8,343 bases of DNA, from NCBI GenBank assembly GCA_029856375.1, contig JAHQWX010000061.1, forward strand, positions 1 to 8,343, read 5' to 3'. The notes under the pieces were generated by a model that saw only the letters and a list, made by a program, of their open reading frames with translations, did no database searches and had not been told where the DNA came from. Below, piece by piece: positions 147-7,304 of the stretch. Positions within the stretch are counted from its first letter, which is position 1. Each line of letters opens with the position of its first letter. A program made the position numbers and the translations under genes. The stretch comes from Promethearchaeia archaeon (GTDB lineage Archaea > Asgardarchaeota > Lokiarchaeia > Sigyniarchaeales > SOKP01).

Positions 147-782
147 TTACGCCGCAGGTATGGTCTCAACGATTGTAACATCAGCGTGCCTGATTTTTTC
201 TCGCTCAGCCAATTTTGCAGAATATTCTTTTCTTAAGTCAGCTAATTTATTCTCCCTTTCTTTTACTCTATTCTCTTGTTTCAACTTCGCTTTCTTGTCT
301 TCGATGAGCAGTTTTTGTACCTTCGTGTATTCCTTTTCTGCAGCTAAAATTCGTTCTTGAGGTTGGTTTTCGTTAACGATTTTAATATACGCCATTTGTT
401 TTTTTGCTAGTGTTTCTCGGGTCATAGCGACATTTTGTTGTTCTCTCGCAAGATCTCCTTTCTCTTTAGCGATTTCTTGCTCTAGTTTCACGATTTTGGT
501 GTTAATCTCTGCGAGTTCAATTTGATTTTTAGCCATTTGATCGTTGTAAATAGCGTTGTTTTTTTCTCTTTTAATTTCTTCTTCTGATACTTCTGATGCT
601 CCAATTTCTTTCAATTGTTGCTTCATTTTTATGTAATTCTTGGCGCTATCAGCCATTTCGCGTTTTATTTTCGCCATTTCTAGCTCTTTTTTAAAGAATT
701 TCTCGCGCGCTTGCGATCGCTTAAGAGTTAATTTTGAGAGATCTCTTAGATTTATTGAGGTCTGTTTTTCCATTGCAGCCAA
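147..782 (-). CDS. Coiled-coil protein, unknown function, third gene of the hsp20 cluster
   Basis: About 210 residues, almost entirely charged and helix-forming (Lys, Glu, Ala, Gln, Leu, Ile), with no membrane segment or signal peptide. Heptad-like spacing of Leu/Ile/Met runs through most of the length, for example QIELAEINTKIVKLEQEIAK. A kink is likely near the Asn-Pro in the NENQPQER segment. The last 12 residues (ADVTIVETIPAA) are not coiled-coil and form a hydrophobic tail. I do not recognise a family. Starts visible in this frame are TTG at 782 or ATG at 773, and neither has a Shine-Dalgarno site. The helix-like sequence continues upstream to codon 834 and would reach an ATG at 844 if one A were added to an A4 run, giving 232 residues (MGEPKIENLESLKRIAEQ...). 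It follows hsp20 and the 56-residue gene in the same direction, so a role as a chaperone partner or structural protein is possible but only inferred. Confidence 0.8.
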   Translation of the reverse strand: MAAMEKQTSINLRDLSKLTLKRSQAREKFFKKELEMAKIKREMADSAKNYIKMKQQLKEIGASEVSEEEIKREKNNAIYNDQMAKNQIELAEINTKIVKLEQEIAKEKGDLAREQQNVAMTRETLAKKQMAYIKIVNENQPQERILAAEKEYTKVQKLLIEDKKAKLKQENRVKERENKLADLRKEYSAKLAEREKIRHADVTIVETIPAA

Positions 783-873: not shown

Positions 874-1044
874 TTAATAATCGTATTCAAAACTATCCCA
901 CTCTTCGTTTTCTTCGTCTTCCTCATCTAGGGTTTCTATTTCAATATACACTTCCCCAGAAAGCACATCGTCGTAATCGTCGTGGAAATATTTTCGTTTT
1001 TTGATTTGTTTCTTTTTTTTTTGCGGGCCATTATTTCTTCCCAT
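874..1044 (-). CDS. 56-residue protein with basic head and acidic tail, unknown
   Basis: A complete frame from ATG (1044-1042) to TAA (876-874). The N-terminal third is very basic, with a KKKKQIKKRKY stretch around residues 9-19. The rest is very acidic, rich in Asp, Glu and Tyr (HDDYDDVLSG, EEDEENEEWD) and ends in EYDY. There is a Shine-Dalgarno-like AGGAAGTGG on the minus strand a few bases before the ATG. It sits between hsp20 (48-base gap) and the coiled-coil gene, in the same direction. The sharp charge segregation and the ribosome site argue that it is real. It has no membrane segment and no Cys/His metal site. It is probably an intrinsically disordered, polyampholyte protein. Function is unknown; a partner of the chaperone or the coiled-coil protein is a guess from position. 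Confidence 0.7.
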   Translation of the reverse strand: MGRNNGPQKKKKQIKKRKYFHDDYDDVLSGEVYIEIETLDEEDEENEEWDSFEYDY

Positions 1045-1092
1045 TTTTACCACTTCCTATTTTTCATTAAATTTTAATAGTAAAAAGAAAAA

Positions 1093-1608
1093 TTATTTGA
1101 TTTCAATTGATTTTGCTTCTTTGTCCTCCAATTTTTTCTTAGTAAGAACGATTTTTAAAACACCGTTATCGTAGGTTGCATCGAGATCGGCTTCGGTTGT
1201 GTTTTCGGGTATTTTAAATACTCGATGGTAAGTTGAAGTGCTGTATTCTTTTCTAATGTAACTACCTGCTTTTTCTTCTCGTTCTTCCTTCTTCTCACCT
1301 TTTATTTCTAATCGGTCTTCTATTAAGTTAATTTGTATGTTATCCTTTTCCATGCCAGGTAATTCTAGAGATATAGAGAAAGTATTGTTGTTTTCTGTGA
1401 TATTTGCTAGTGGTATCCTGAATATTGGTTCGTCTTGCCAAACTTTTATGGGAGCCATTAGATTTTCAAATCGGCGCCACATCTTGTTAAAGTAATGATC
1501 CATAGATTGAGACAACGAAAACGGATAGAAATGCCTTAAAGCAATCTCTCTCGAGTTTTCTTTCTTTTCTTCCTCCTTTTTCACCTTTATTTTCTTTGCT
1601 TCAGCCAT
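1093..1608 (-). CDS. hsp20: Small heat shock protein, Hsp20/alpha-crystallin family
   Basis: 171 residues. Hsp20 proteins are ATP-independent holdases that form oligomers and keep unfolding proteins soluble in the cytoplasm. The alpha-crystallin domain covers about residues 66-156. It includes the LPGM turn at 83-86 and the family signature ending in GVL (ATYDNGVLKIVL, 144-155). The C-terminal tail carries the I-X-I oligomer motif (IEI, 168-170). The N-terminal arm is long, with a Lys/Glu-rich start and then an aromatic region (HFYPF, MDHYF, MWRRF), typical of substrate-binding arms. I chose ATG at 1608: it has a Shine-Dalgarno AAGGTGA five bases upstream. An in-frame GTG at 1617 lies inside that site and is therefore unlikely to be the start. 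Likely first gene of a minus-strand operon with the 56-residue and coiled-coil genes, transcribed from the divergent region shared with the ribbon-helix-helix gene. Confidence 0.95.
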   Translation of the reverse strand: MAEAKKIKVKKEEEKKENSREIALRHFYPFSLSQSMDHYFNKMWRRFENLMAPIKVWQDEPIFRIPLANITENNNTFSISLELPGMEKDNIQINLIEDRLEIKGEKKEEREEKAGSYIRKEYSTSTYHRVFKIPENTTEADLDATYDNGVLKIVLTKKKLEDKEAKSIEIK

Positions 1609-1660
1609 TATTTTCACCTTTTTTTTCGTTATTTATGATTGATAATATAGAATAACAAAG

Positions 1661-1675
1661 TATTTAAATGTTATC
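1661..1675 (-). promoter_or_regulatory. TATA box and upstream element of the hsp20 promoter
   Basis: On the minus strand the sequence reads GATAAC-ATTTAAATA. ATTTAAATA is a good archaeal TATA element. Transcription would start roughly 25 bases downstream, near 1637-1640, leaving an untranslated leader of about 30 bases before the ATG at 1608. The preceding GATAAC lies where the TFB recognition element (BRE) would be and is also one arm of the palindrome at 1669-1686. Confidence 0.6.
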
Positions 1676-1686
1676 ATTCGATAACA
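1669..1686. promoter_or_regulatory. Perfect palindrome TGTTATC-N4-GATAACA, candidate operator
   Basis: Two perfect 7-base arms separated by ATTC. The arm nearest hsp20 directly abuts that gene's TATA box. The centres of its two half-sites are 10 bases apart, about one helical turn, which suits a dimeric regulator. The neighbouring ribbon-helix-helix gene is the obvious candidate to bind it; that is an inference from position and from the way this fold usually reads short repeated sites. Confidence 0.55.
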
Positions 1687-1694
1687 ATTTATTC

Positions 1695-1704
1695 AATCGA
1701 TAAC
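1695..1704 (+). promoter_or_regulatory. Third GATAAC half-site, direct repeat of the palindrome arm
   Basis: AATCGATAAC here matches ATTCGATAAC at 1676-1685 in nine of ten positions, with a spacing of exactly 19 bases, close to two helical turns. It immediately precedes the TATA-like TTTAAAA of the ribbon-helix-helix gene. It may be an autoregulatory site, or simply that promoter's BRE. Confidence 0.5.
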
Positions 1705-1711
1705 TTTAAAA
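1705..1711 (+). promoter_or_regulatory. TATA box of the ribbon-helix-helix gene
   Basis: TTTAAAAG follows GATAAC directly. A start about 25 bases downstream would fall near 1732-1738, about 40-45 bases before the ATG at 1779. The arrangement mirrors the hsp20 promoter on the other strand (GATAAC plus TTTAAA). Confidence 0.5.
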
Positions 1712-1778
1712 GCATTTGAAAACATATTAATGTTATGTAGAAGTCGAAAAAAAATTAGGACTTAAAAAAGGGAAAAAA

Positions 1779-2360
1779 ATGACGGATAAAACAAAAAGAA
1801 AACGCAATAATTTTTTATCGTTTAGAGTTTCTGAAAAAACTCTTAAAAATTTAAATTTAATGGCTAAACAAACAGGAAAAACGCGTGGCATAATGGGAAA
1901 AGACGCTATGAAAAACTGGCTTAAATTAGAATTATTCAATCAAACCAATGAAATGATAACGATCTCTAAGAGAATGTTTACCAAATTGCTTTCTCTTCTC
2001 AAACAAGAAGAATTAAACGCTATCGCAGAAGACAATTCTACTCTATTTGCAAATATATTAAAATTTCTAGTTGAAGTACCCATGAATGAAGATACATTAA
2101 AAAAATATGGGACATTTTCGACGGAATTTTTTGGTAAAACCGGCTTCAGATGGTTCAATACTTTGGACATACAAATCCGAGAGAATCGCCTTATCTTCAA
2201 AGGACTCCACGATTTAGACGAAAATTTTTCAACATTTTTCACCCACTTCTATAAAAAACTTCTAACGGATCATTTTAATTTAGATATTGTTGAACATGAA
2301 CAAGATCTATCGCCACAATTAATACTTCTTGAATTTGCCGTTAAAAATACTGGAAAATAA
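1779..2360 (+). CDS. Ribbon-helix-helix transcriptional regulator with an unrecognised C-terminal domain
   Basis: 193 residues. The N-terminus looks like a ribbon-helix-helix DNA-binding fold: a basic leader (KTKRKRN), a strand FLSFRVS (12-18), helix A from about 19 to 33, a GKTRG turn and helix B ending near NWLKL (about 50). Such proteins bind DNA as dimers through the paired strands. Residues 55-193 form a further domain of mixed helix and strand with many aromatics (EFFGKTGFRWFNT, ENFSTFFTHFYKK) that I do not recognise; it may sense a signal or mediate oligomerisation. The ATG at 1779 has only a weak AGGGA site about seven bases upstream but is the first ATG in the frame and sits right before the basic leader. 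The gene diverges from hsp20 across a region with GATAAC repeats, so it is a good candidate repressor or activator of the chaperone operon and of itself. That role is inferred. Confidence 0.75.
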   Translation: MTDKTKRKRNNFLSFRVSEKTLKNLNLMAKQTGKTRGIMGKDAMKNWLKLELFNQTNEMITISKRMFTKLLSLLKQEELNAIAEDNSTLFANILKFLVEVPMNEDTLKKYGTFSTEFFGKTGFRWFNTLDIQIRENRLIFKGLHDLDENFSTFFTHFYKKLLTDHFNLDIVEHEQDLSPQLILLEFAVKNTGK

Positions 2361-2475: not shown

Positions 2476-3177
2476 ATGGAGAAAACACCAGAAGAGAATC
2501 AAGTAATTTTTAAAATATTGTATTGGGGAATGGCGGGCTCTGGCAAAACCACTGCGTTAAATACCTTATATCGTTTTACGCAAGAGAATGAAACAGAAAT
2601 TCTTCCAAAAAGCCCAGTAAAATCGGTTAGCAAGAAAGATGGGGCTACATTGTATTTTGATAGAGCGATCTTTCAATCTAGAAAAAATAATAATATACTA
2701 ATTCAAATATTTACTGTAGCTGGACAAAAGCAATTTTATCCTTTAAGAGAGCAGGTATTGGAGGGGACAAATGGAATTATTTATGTCGTGGATTCTCAAA
2801 AGCAATTATTAGAAGACAACATTGATGCGTTAAAGGAATTAAAAAAAGCAACGAAGGGAGCCTTAATTAAGAAAATACCATTAATCGTGATGTTAAATAA
2901 GAAAGATCTCAAAGGTACTATAAAGCGGAATAAAATGATCGAGATTTTAAAGAACGAAGGCCTTTGGTACGATCCCCCCCATAAATTAGCTCCATGGACG
3001 CCTATTGTTTTCGAAACATGCGCGTTGTACAAGAAAAGAAAAAATACTTATCGAAGCCTTCTCGAATGCTTAAGAAGAACTATTTTTTATAATTTATTTG
3101 GAGAAGATGATGAGGCTCCGACTAATGATGATTTATTTAGAAAATTTTTTGAAAAAAAAAGTAAAAAAAGTCACTAA
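2476..3177 (+). CDS. MglA-like small Ras-superfamily GTPase
   Basis: 233 residues. The G motifs are in order: P-loop GMAGSGKTT (18-26), a switch I region ending in ATLYFD (57-62), the G3 region TVAGQ (80-84), G4 NKKD (141-144) and G5 ETCAL (180-184). TVAGQ rather than DTAGQ, followed by YPLREQVLEGTNGIIYVVDSQ-type sequence, is the pattern of the bacterial polarity GTPase MglA (TVPGQ, then ...GVDGIVFVADSQ), so I place it in the MglA/Arf-like branch common in archaea including Asgard. It likely switches between GTP and GDP states in the cytoplasm. MglA works with the Roadblock protein MglB; a Roadblock-like gene lies at 6876-7304, but not next to this one. The C-terminus has an extension of about 25 residues, acidic (EDDEA) and then Lys-rich (FFEKKSKKSH), with no lipidation Cys, that could touch acidic membranes or partners. 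A Shine-Dalgarno GGAG lies seven bases before the ATG. Confidence 0.9.
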   Translation: MEKTPEENQVIFKILYWGMAGSGKTTALNTLYRFTQENETEILPKSPVKSVSKKDGATLYFDRAIFQSRKNNNILIQIFTVAGQKQFYPLREQVLEGTNGIIYVVDSQKQLLEDNIDALKELKKATKGALIKKIPLIVMLNKKDLKGTIKRNKMIEILKNEGLWYDPPHKLAPWTPIVFETCALYKKRKNTYRSLLECLRRTIFYNLFGEDDEAPTNDDLFRKFFEKKSKKSH

Positions 3178-5465: not shown

Positions 5466-6869
5466 GTGATAATTCTAATTATTACTAATAAATTAAATAG
5501 AGCAATTGCATCGCTTGCTGGAGCTGTAATTGTTTACTTCGTATTAATTTTTCTTGAGGGATTAGATTTTTCTATTATAGTAGATCTTTTATTTGGTTCT
5601 CAACAAGACGGATTCGTCAATCTTCATTCCTTAATATTGATAATTGGAATGATGCTGATTGTAGCAATATCACACGAAGCCGGCCTATTTCAATTTTTTG
5701 CCGCAAGACTTATAAAACTATCAAAAGGAAAACCAATTCGTCTAATGATAATCTTATGCGTGATAACGATAATTATATCCGCGATTTTAAATAACATATT
5801 AACCGTAATTGTGTTGATACCTCTTACTATTACGATTTCGCGTATGTTAAATACCGATCCTTCCCCCTACATATTAACGGAAGCGGTTTTGGTAAATATT
5901 GGAGGTACGCTGTTTCCAATTTCGTCTATTCCAAATATATTAATAACAACCTATGCTGAAATATCCTTTCTTGAATTTTTTTTGAATGTTGGTTTAGTTT
6001 CATTAATGATATTTGTCCCTACAATTATATTTTTCATCTTTCTTTATAAGAAGGAAATGGTGATTCCAGAAGAGAGCAAGAAAGTTTTAGAAGAATTTAA
6101 TGTGTGGAATGTTGTGCAGAATAAAAAATTACTCTATTATTCGCTTTTTTCTCTATTAATTTTATTTGTTTTAATGATAACAGTACCATCGACTTTGATT
6201 TCAATGGACATGATAGCGTTAACTATTGCTTTAATCTTAATCGTTTTAAGCAGAATAGAACCCAAGGATTTGATTTCTAAAATAGATTTTGAATTAATTC
6301 TTTATCTCCTTGGAATTTTCGTAATTGCAGGGGGTCTGGAAATCACAGGAATTGTCGATTTGATGGGGAATCTTTTATCGATAATTGGAGGGAACGATTT
6401 ATTTACCCAATTAATAGTAATCTTGTGGATTTCAGCCTATTTTAGTAGTAACATTGATAATATTCCAATAACAAAAGTTTTGACGCCAATAATAGGGGAT
6501 ATGGTGGATAATTCGCTACTCGCACCTGGTAATCGATTTTATTATAGTCTCGCGATAGGTGCGAATTGGGGAGATAATTTAACTCCATTAGGAGATAACA
6601 TCCTTGTCATGAATTTGGCCGAACAAAATAAACGCCCAATCACCTTTAAAAAATTCTTTAAATTGGGTTTTACGACCACAAATCTTCAATTATTTATCGT
6701 GTCGATTTATTATTTGGTTGTGTTTTATTTTTTCGTTGGTATCATAATTTTGATAATCATAGCAATAAGTATTTTAGTATTGTATTTCCTAATTAGATAT
6801 GGACCTGAGTCGATTAAAATCAAAATTAATAATATTACATCTAAATTTAGAAATTTAATAATAAAGTGA
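5466..6869 (+). CDS. ArsB/NhaD/P-protein-type ion transporter (probable Na+/H+ antiporter or anion permease)
   Basis: 467 residues from a GTG at 5466 and about 493 if the upstream ATG at 5387 is restored. It is a polytopic membrane protein of the ion transporter superfamily that includes ArsB, NhaD and the P/OCA2 protein. Two related signatures sit in the two halves, as expected from the family's inverted repeat: SAILNNILTVIVLIPLTI (105-122) and SNIDNIPITKVLTPIIG (328-344). IGGTLFPISSIPNI (145-158) corresponds to the IGGTATLIGDPPNI-type segment of relatives, and GANWGDNLTPLGD (365-377) to the second-half pore loop. The usual GDPPN has become SSIPN, so the substrate may differ. The GTG start is doubtful: it has no Shine-Dalgarno and would cut the first membrane helix in half. 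The Roadblock-like gene starts six bases after the stop, indicating one operon. Cations, arsenite or organic anions cannot be distinguished from sequence alone. Confidence 0.85.
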   Translation: MIILIITNKLNRAIASLAGAVIVYFVLIFLEGLDFSIIVDLLFGSQQDGFVNLHSLILIIGMMLIVAISHEAGLFQFFAARLIKLSKGKPIRLMIILCVITIIISAILNNILTVIVLIPLTITISRMLNTDPSPYILTEAVLVNIGGTLFPISSIPNILITTYAEISFLEFFLNVGLVSLMIFVPTIIFFIFLYKKEMVIPEESKKVLEEFNVWNVVQNKKLLYYSLFSLLILFVLMITVPSTLISMDMIALTIALILIVLSRIEPKDLISKIDFELILYLLGIFVIAGGLEITGIVDLMGNLLSIIGGNDLFTQLIVILWISAYFSSNIDNIPITKVLTPIIGDMVDNSLLAPGNRFYYSLAIGANWGDNLTPLGDNILVMNLAEQNKRPITFKKFFKLGFTTTNLQLFIVSIYYLVVFYFFVGIIILIIIAISILVLYFLIRYGPESIKIKINNITSKFRNLIIK

Positions 6870-6875
6870 TGAGAT

Positions 6876-7304
6876 ATGGTTTTTCAGAATATTAAACGCA
6901 TAAAAAGGGCATTACCAGAGGTTTGTCACATAGCAATGTTCTACAACAATGGAACTATTTTCCAAACCACTTTTGAGCACCCAATCAACATCCCCAAATT
7001 AGGTGAAAATCTCGCAGAGATGCTGCTTCACATTAAAAAACTCTACGATATATGCGAATTTAAAATTGATGACTATAAAAGATTAGTATTTGAAACAGAG
7101 GAGATTTCGCTAATAGTTTTAAAACTCGGAGAAGATAGCAACATTGGACTATTTTTTAGGAAAGAGGAAGGGAAGGACTTAAAATTAGGATCAATTAGAA
7201 GGTATTTGGAGAGAATTGAAGACCTTGTAGATGTATCACAGGAAGAAATAGAAAGACTTGACCAAGAGGACGAAAAAAAAGAAGAAGAGAAAAAAGAAAT
7301 TTAA
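6876..7304 (+). CDS. Roadblock/LC7-like domain protein
   Basis: 142 residues. Residues 1-110 have the layout of a Roadblock/LC7 (MglB, longin-related) fold: a first helix (IKRIKRALP), a strand pair with a turn (CHIAMFYNNGTIFQTTFE), a long central helix (PKLGENLAEMLLHIKKLYDI), then strands (YKRLVFETEEISLIVLKLG and SNIGLFFRKE) and a closing helix. Proteins of this type dimerise and act as scaffolds or GAPs for small GTPases such as MglA. The tail (about 120-142) is a charged, disordered Glu/Lys run. It starts six bases after the transporter stop; a GTGAT that overlaps that stop codon can pair with the 16S anti-Shine-Dalgarno five bases before the ATG, so coupled translation is likely. The pairing suggests that it connects a GTPase to control of the transporter, but this is inferred. 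Family assignment is by fold pattern and could be a related longin-type domain. Confidence 0.7.
   Translation: MVFQNIKRIKRALPEVCHIAMFYNNGTIFQTTFEHPINIPKLGENLAEMLLHIKKLYDICEFKIDDYKRLVFETEEISLIVLKLGEDSNIGLFFRKEEGKDLKLGSIRRYLERIEDLVDVSQEEIERLDQEDEKKEEEKKEI

Follow-up and report, generated by a model that had tools for sequence, protein, structure and literature searches.

What do three GATAAC repeats do between two divergent TATA boxes in a Lokiarchaeal genome, and to which of the two flanking genes do they belong? The repeats lie between an hsp20 gene and a ribbon-helix-helix (RHH) gene in a stretch of 8,343 nucleotides (the window; contig JAHQWX010000061.1 of assembly GCA_029856375.1), which is contig 483 of its own genome assembly (2.54 Mb, 503 contigs, 69% complete). 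The first-pass annotation of the window took the repeats for a divergent switch of a chaperone regulon, with a TFB-recognition element (BRE) as the competing explanation. Comparison across relatives argues for the switch and against both the chaperone regulon and the BRE. The ~70-bp conserved block around the repeats is probably an operator common to both genes: the predicted RHH protein would bind there and so repress both its own promoter and that of the divergent hsp20/acidic-protein operon.

The three half-sites were confirmed in the sequence, with the letters, coordinates and spacings (10 and 19) first given for them. The palindromic candidate operator TGTTATC-ATTC-GATAACA occupies 1669-1686 and has no strand (left arm 1669-1675, right arm 1680-1686; relatives' consensus TGTTTTC-N4-GAAAACA). 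The third half-site, TCGATAAC (1697-1704, plus strand; consensus TCGAYAAC), has the same letters as 1678-1685 and adjoins the TATA box of the regulator. GATAAC stands before each TATA box on opposite strands, as had been proposed: the minus strand reads GATAAC-A-TTTAAATA on the hsp20 side and the plus strand reads GATAAC-TTTAAAAG on the RHH side. TTTAAATA (1661-1668, minus strand), with 8 columns identical in 14 or 15 of the 15 loci aligned below, is the putative TATA box of the divergent hsp20 operon, and TTTAAAAG (1705-1712, plus strand), assigned from sequence and alignment, is the putative TATA box of the RHH gene. Two extra, weaker half-sites lie in partly conserved columns on the plus strand. 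AATAAC (1651-1656) lies beyond the divergent TATA box as seen from the palindrome, where the relatives have GATWACA (C in 15/15, the next A in 14/15 and the first G in 10/15), and GAAAAC (1718-1723) is downstream of the regulator TATA box, at a column with C in 10/15 aligned loci relative to which the window sits one base off.

Taken as a single sequence, the palindrome is not significant. The 161-bp intergenic region was shuffled 2000 times by dinucleotides; 954 of the shuffles contain a palindrome whose arms are 7 bp long, and 233 contain such a palindrome together with a third copy of the 6-mer. It is the comparison of sequences across loci that marks the palindrome as more than chance. Relatives of the locus were found at 22 loci among 84,980 species genomes, all assigned to Candidatus Lokiarchaeota or Lokiarchaeia, which together with the window give a set of 23 RHH genes (the window and L032-L053). 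An inverted repeat, GTTNTC-N3/4-GANANC with no more than a single right-arm mismatch allowed, adjoins a TATA-like box upstream of 21 of the 23 RHH orthologues and in one of 452 other upstream regions, both strands of the latter being searched; in these 452 regions 15 hits of the inverted repeat were counted, one of them with a TATA box. The two misses are L051 and L053, in which the gene is broken near its start. An 18-base consensus, with up to two mismatches allowed, matched 14 of the 22 RHH upstream regions and none of 451 other upstream regions; with up to three allowed (the window itself has three), it matched 17 of the 22 and three of the 451. These figures are partly circular, since the loci tested are also those from which the consensus was derived. 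L053 was left out of this test, as well as of the spacing count, the alignment, the protein tree and the count of first divergent genes. L039 has two tandem RHH genes; the second copy was used for the spacing count and the 18-base test, and the first for the inverted-repeat count, the protein tree and the first-divergent-gene count.

Fifteen of the 23 loci can be aligned from -18 to +54 bases relative to the first base of the palindrome, with no gap other than a single base in L033 (besides L053, the alignment omits L039, L043, a near-duplicate of L040, L047, L049, L050, L051 and L052). The conserved block runs from GATWACATAGTATTTAAATGTTTTCATWTGAAAACA through a non-conserved 10-bp spacer to ATCGAYAACTTTATATACTTTGAWAWCA. 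The G and C of both dyad arms stand out (offsets 1, 6 and 11 in 15/15, offset 16 in 13/15), as do the G (15/15) and C (14/15) of the third half-site. The inverted-repeat consensus across the loci is GTTTTC-N4-GAAAAC, and the GATAAC letters are a local variant: the consensus of the lineage has GAAAAC for the dyad and, for the third half-site, GACAAC. Thus, of the expected conservation of GATAAC in orthologous intergenic regions, the frame and spacing are kept but the letters are not. Of the 16 loci for which the script found a third half-site, 15 have it 19 bp past the right arm and one, L033, has it 18 bp past; the script did not find it in the other 6 of 22 loci. Inspection by eye showed GATATC 9 bp past the right arm in L049, about one turn less, no spacer in L050 and L052, where both arms adjoin TATA boxes, and a degenerate operator in L051. 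The unit is therefore a half-site adjoining a TATA box on each strand.

The element is closely linked to the RHH gene. The TATA-plus-palindrome pattern TATWTAAATGTTNTCANNYGANAA was found in 15 of 83 genomes of the class (own genome included), once in each, with no match for the reversed control, and all 15 sites are 85-118 bp from the matched part of an RHH gene. A close RHH protein (E<=1e-40, a cut-off of our own choice) is encoded in 22 of the 83 genomes, with weaker ones in 8 more; TATWTAAATGTTNTCANNYGANAA occurs in 15 of these 22 vs. none of the 61 others (hypergeometric 1.4e-11, ignoring kinship). The seven close-RHH genomes without TATWTAAATGTTNTCANNYGANAA are those of variant loci, namely L040 and L043 (both with a GCAAAC arm), L050, L039/L048, L051, L047 and L053. 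The four genomes of the same genus have neither a close RHH gene nor TATWTAAATGTTNTCANNYGANAA. The third divergent gene of the window (147-782, minus strand) encodes a coiled-coil protein with three long predicted helices, and 30 loci with such a coil gene were compared. Where RHH is in the locus, the site is present in 9 of 11 (six distinct operators; the misses are L090 and L100). At the 19 coil loci without RHH, no site was found at up to two mismatches and four were found at three, a few of these loci having little upstream DNA. The element thus keeps to the RHH gene where the divergent partner differs and was not found, at up to two mismatches, at the 19 RHH-less coil loci, which supports the proposed tie between the divergent switch and the RHH gene. 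At the level of DNA sequence, an autoregulated divergent switch is well supported.

The regulator gene (1779-2360, plus strand) encodes 193 residues with a probable N-terminal RHH domain and a predicted TRAPP/V4R/H-NOX-fold domain (approximately residues 54-193). The RHH_1 match of the window protein alone is weak (E 0.14, 12.6 bits vs. a cut-off of 20.5 bits). The RHH_1 profile matches 42 of 58 aligned family members at E<=0.5 (best 2.2e-4), and a family profile searched against solved structures matched RHH chains, ORF56 and CopG among them, with E values of 0.03-0.09 across approximately residues 12-54. The single-chain model has helices at 19-32 and 36-54, and the RHH strand, which depends on the dimer, is not formed; the RHH part, which was not modelled on its own, did not turn up in the structural-match lists of the model. 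In the predicted model the C-terminal domain has three helices, two strands, a helix and two strands, and this order together with a structural match places it by prediction in the TRAPP/V4R/H-NOX fold group. A scan of the window up to E 1 gave no match to the V4R Pfam family, which is also not among the matches listed (25 of 29 families) for the 58 members up to E 0.5. His144 is invariant in the 58 members. H-NOX domains bind heme through a proximal histidine, and the fold group has members that bind heme-NO, phenol or palmitate. In a tree of 22 RHH proteins, L050-L052 separated from the others with support, and the place of the window protein was not settled.

Distant RHH relatives in L017 (G012), L030 (G033) and L016 (G006) have different palindromes at a similar place, ~100 bp before the gene segment that was matched, such as TTGTAACAATTGTTACAA in L017 and TTTGACAAG-N7-CTTGTCAAA in L030 (seven loci were inspected, without a significance test). 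The RHH family and its operators may have diverged together.

Sequence comparison showed that GTTNTC-N4-GANAAC adjoins the divergent TATA box and that the third half-site, at a near-fixed 19 bp, adjoins the regulator TATA box; in the genomes searched, no dyad with its TATA box was found away from the regulator gene. We infer binding, repression and a ligand as follows. RHH dimers would occupy both arms and the third half-site, and the bound dimers would cover the positions of TFB and TBP on both strands. With TFB and TBP blocked, both promoters would stay off until a signal is received. The C-terminal domain would act as the sensor of a small or hydrophobic ligand, in response to which the protein would release the DNA, so that one signal would raise the regulator and the divergent operon alike.

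The closest layout is that of MsvR from methanogens, a helix-turn-helix protein with a V4R domain that recognises the partial inverted repeat TTCGTA-N4-TACGAA and a third box forming a partial direct repeat (PMC3729527). Methanothermobacter MsvR is transcribed divergently from its target operon, its boxes overlap the BRE and TATA box, and its binding prevents that of TBP and TFB (PMC3729527). The likeness is one of layout only: an inverted repeat with 6-bp arms and an N4 gap, a third half-site at the regulator's own promoter and a divergent operon. However, the Lokiarchaeal regulator has a predicted RHH domain and lacks the redox cysteines, and the operator letters and the lineage also differ. 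The cysteines of the MsvR V4R domain are described as conserved and act in redox sensing (PMC3729527). The window protein and 50 of the 58 aligned members have no cysteine at all, and an MsvR-like thiol switch was rejected for this reason. Because of the other DNA-binding domain and the missing redox cysteines, the regulator is not a member of MsvR. It is most likely an autoregulated one-component repressor that resembles MsvR in operator geometry and uses a different DNA-binding domain. Compared with Asgard TRAPPC3 and the bacterial V4R sensors PoxR and DmpR, as portrayed in PMC10933270, it has no listed Pfam V4R match, lacks the four-cysteine Zn site and is fused to RHH. Like the predicted Lokiarchaeal RHH protein, haloarchaeal CdrS is an archaeal transcription regulator of the RHH_1 family, but it is described as a 55-residue single-domain regulator of ftsZ2, without a sensor-like domain (PMC7439475).

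The RHH protein could bind the same operator with the opposite outcome, activating one or both promoters, for example by recruiting TBP or TFB. The near-fixed placement of the palindrome, the third half-site and the TATA boxes would suit recruitment equally well. However, the half-sites would be at the places of TFB contact and seemingly flank both TATA boxes on both sides, a geometry that suggests occlusion, and Methanothermobacter MsvR on comparable boxes blocks TBP and TFB binding (PMC3729527). Activation is thus unlikely. It is also improbable that a different, unlinked regulator binds the operator and that the RHH gene is just one of its targets. Linkage alone does not tell which protein binds, but a regulator acting in trans should also have sites at other places, and in 83 genomes the palindrome with its TATA box occurs only beside RHH. 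Even without the TATA requirement, the degenerate palindrome has only nine off-locus places in 58 genomes, seven of them within reading frames and two between (L054 and L064). The operator pattern in the own genome is confined to contigs 483 and 427. The match on the latter (L054; G000, 5466-5482; TGTTATCATATGATAAC), the second own-genome match to the degenerate palindrome, lies between two reading frames with no abutting TATA box by eye, and is probably due to chance.

The chaperone regulon for Hsp20, as first proposed, is very improbable. The divergent operon starts with hsp20 in the window (1093-1617, minus strand; PF00011, E 5.9e-22) and in L048, and L034 has hsp20 within the operon. The window's hsp20 is also the sole PF00011 match in its own assembly, a point that counts against rejecting the chaperone reading. 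However, these are the only 3 of 23 loci with hsp20 in the divergent operon; the other 20 show none beside the RHH gene, some flanks being short. The predicted conservation in relatives thus stands for the inverted repeat with its TATA box and falls for the hsp20 partner. The own genome has two thermosome matches, on contigs 481 and 70, and neither contig carries a match to the operator. Pyrococcus Phr is, like the proposed repressor, an archaeal negative regulator with a palindromic site and with Hsp20 among its targets (PMC10746257). However, Phr controls many heat-shock genes according to the same account, whereas the Lokiarchaeal operator serves one locus with Hsp20 as a minority partner. 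An operator at several heat-shock genes, the mark of Phr- and HSR1-type control, was not found in the own genome, of which the assembly holds 69%.

Most commonly (16 of 21 relatives), the divergent operon opens with the gene of a tiny Asp/Glu-rich protein of 42-67 residues, often beginning KKKKYDYEYDDY... and ending in IYS. Its likely counterpart in the window, by composition and place rather than by alignment, is the small acidic protein of 59 residues encoded by the second divergent gene (874-1053, minus strand). In L042 the tiny acidic frame upstream of the RHH gene has one in-frame stop, from either decay or an assembly error. Other first divergent genes encode a 279-residue membrane-like protein (L033), a 527-residue protein (L039), a methyltransferase/ATP-grasp protein (L047) and Hsp20 (L048). 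The acidic gene is followed by a coiled-coil gene in most loci and by a gene for a 640-690-residue protein in L049-L052; the methyltransferase/ATP-grasp assignment comes from Pfam for L047 and L049 and was made by eye for L050-L052.

That GATAAC is merely the BRE of two back-to-back promoters has next to no probability: it adjoins both TATA boxes and fits the BRE consensus RNWAAW at five of six positions, but the counts of the motif before TATA boxes in the own genome and in 58 genomes refute a general BRE. GATAAC-N0-1-TTTAWAW occurs at two places in the whole own assembly, both in the window (1662-1675 and 1699-1711), compared with seven for the reversed control. None of 146 TATA-like boxes is preceded within eight bases by GA[ATC]AAC (189 upstream regions, 312 kb, 40 of the 503 own contigs, with noisy TATA calling). 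TCGAYAACYTTAWAW has 23 matches in the 58 genomes, five of them at RHH loci, and is rarer than its reversed control (about 70). Moreover, conservation extends to the right arm of the palindrome, which in most loci is not followed by a TATA box.

The coiled-coil proteins form a family of ~218 residues with three long predicted helices and a mean pLDDT of 91.4 (window 147-782; L035, L036, L046 and others), and the window member has no Pfam match. Their genes are often present in two copies, one on each side of the RHH gene, and the family comprises 32 database proteins, of which those with an organism name are all from Asgard archaea. Directly downstream of the RHH gene lies a gene for an Arf-like small GTPase (2476-3177; PF00025, E 1.7e-15). 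Further on come a gene for a CitMHS-type transporter (5466-6869; PF03600, E 2.9e-57) and, after it, one for a protein that contains MFYNNGTIFQTTFE (6876-7304), a pair found again by eye near the RHH gene in several relatives.

Lokiarchaea belong to the group of archaea thought closest to eukaryotes, and the TRAPP fold is best known from the vesicle-tethering subunits of eukaryotic vesicle traffic. It is possible, if doubtful, that three things hold jointly: that the cysteine-free TRAPP/V4R/H-NOX-fold domain is the sensor of a Lokiarchaeal RHH one-component repressor, that an MsvR-like circuit (a 6-N4-6 dyad and a third half-site over two divergent promoters) was reached with an unrelated DNA-binding domain, and that the tiny Asp/Glu-rich protein is the feedback partner of the repressor, for example a DNA mimic. 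No earlier Asgard regulator-operator pair was found among the matches listed in titles and abstract openings of the open-licence literature. The locus offers Asgard archaea a testable regulator-operator pair at base resolution, and an operator could be told from a BRE in an archaeal promoter through comparison alone. If the sensor fold is true, the MsvR operator layout would have been reached with a different DNA-binding domain, and a fold of eukaryotic vesicle traffic would be linked to ligand-controlled transcription in the archaea nearest to eukaryotes.
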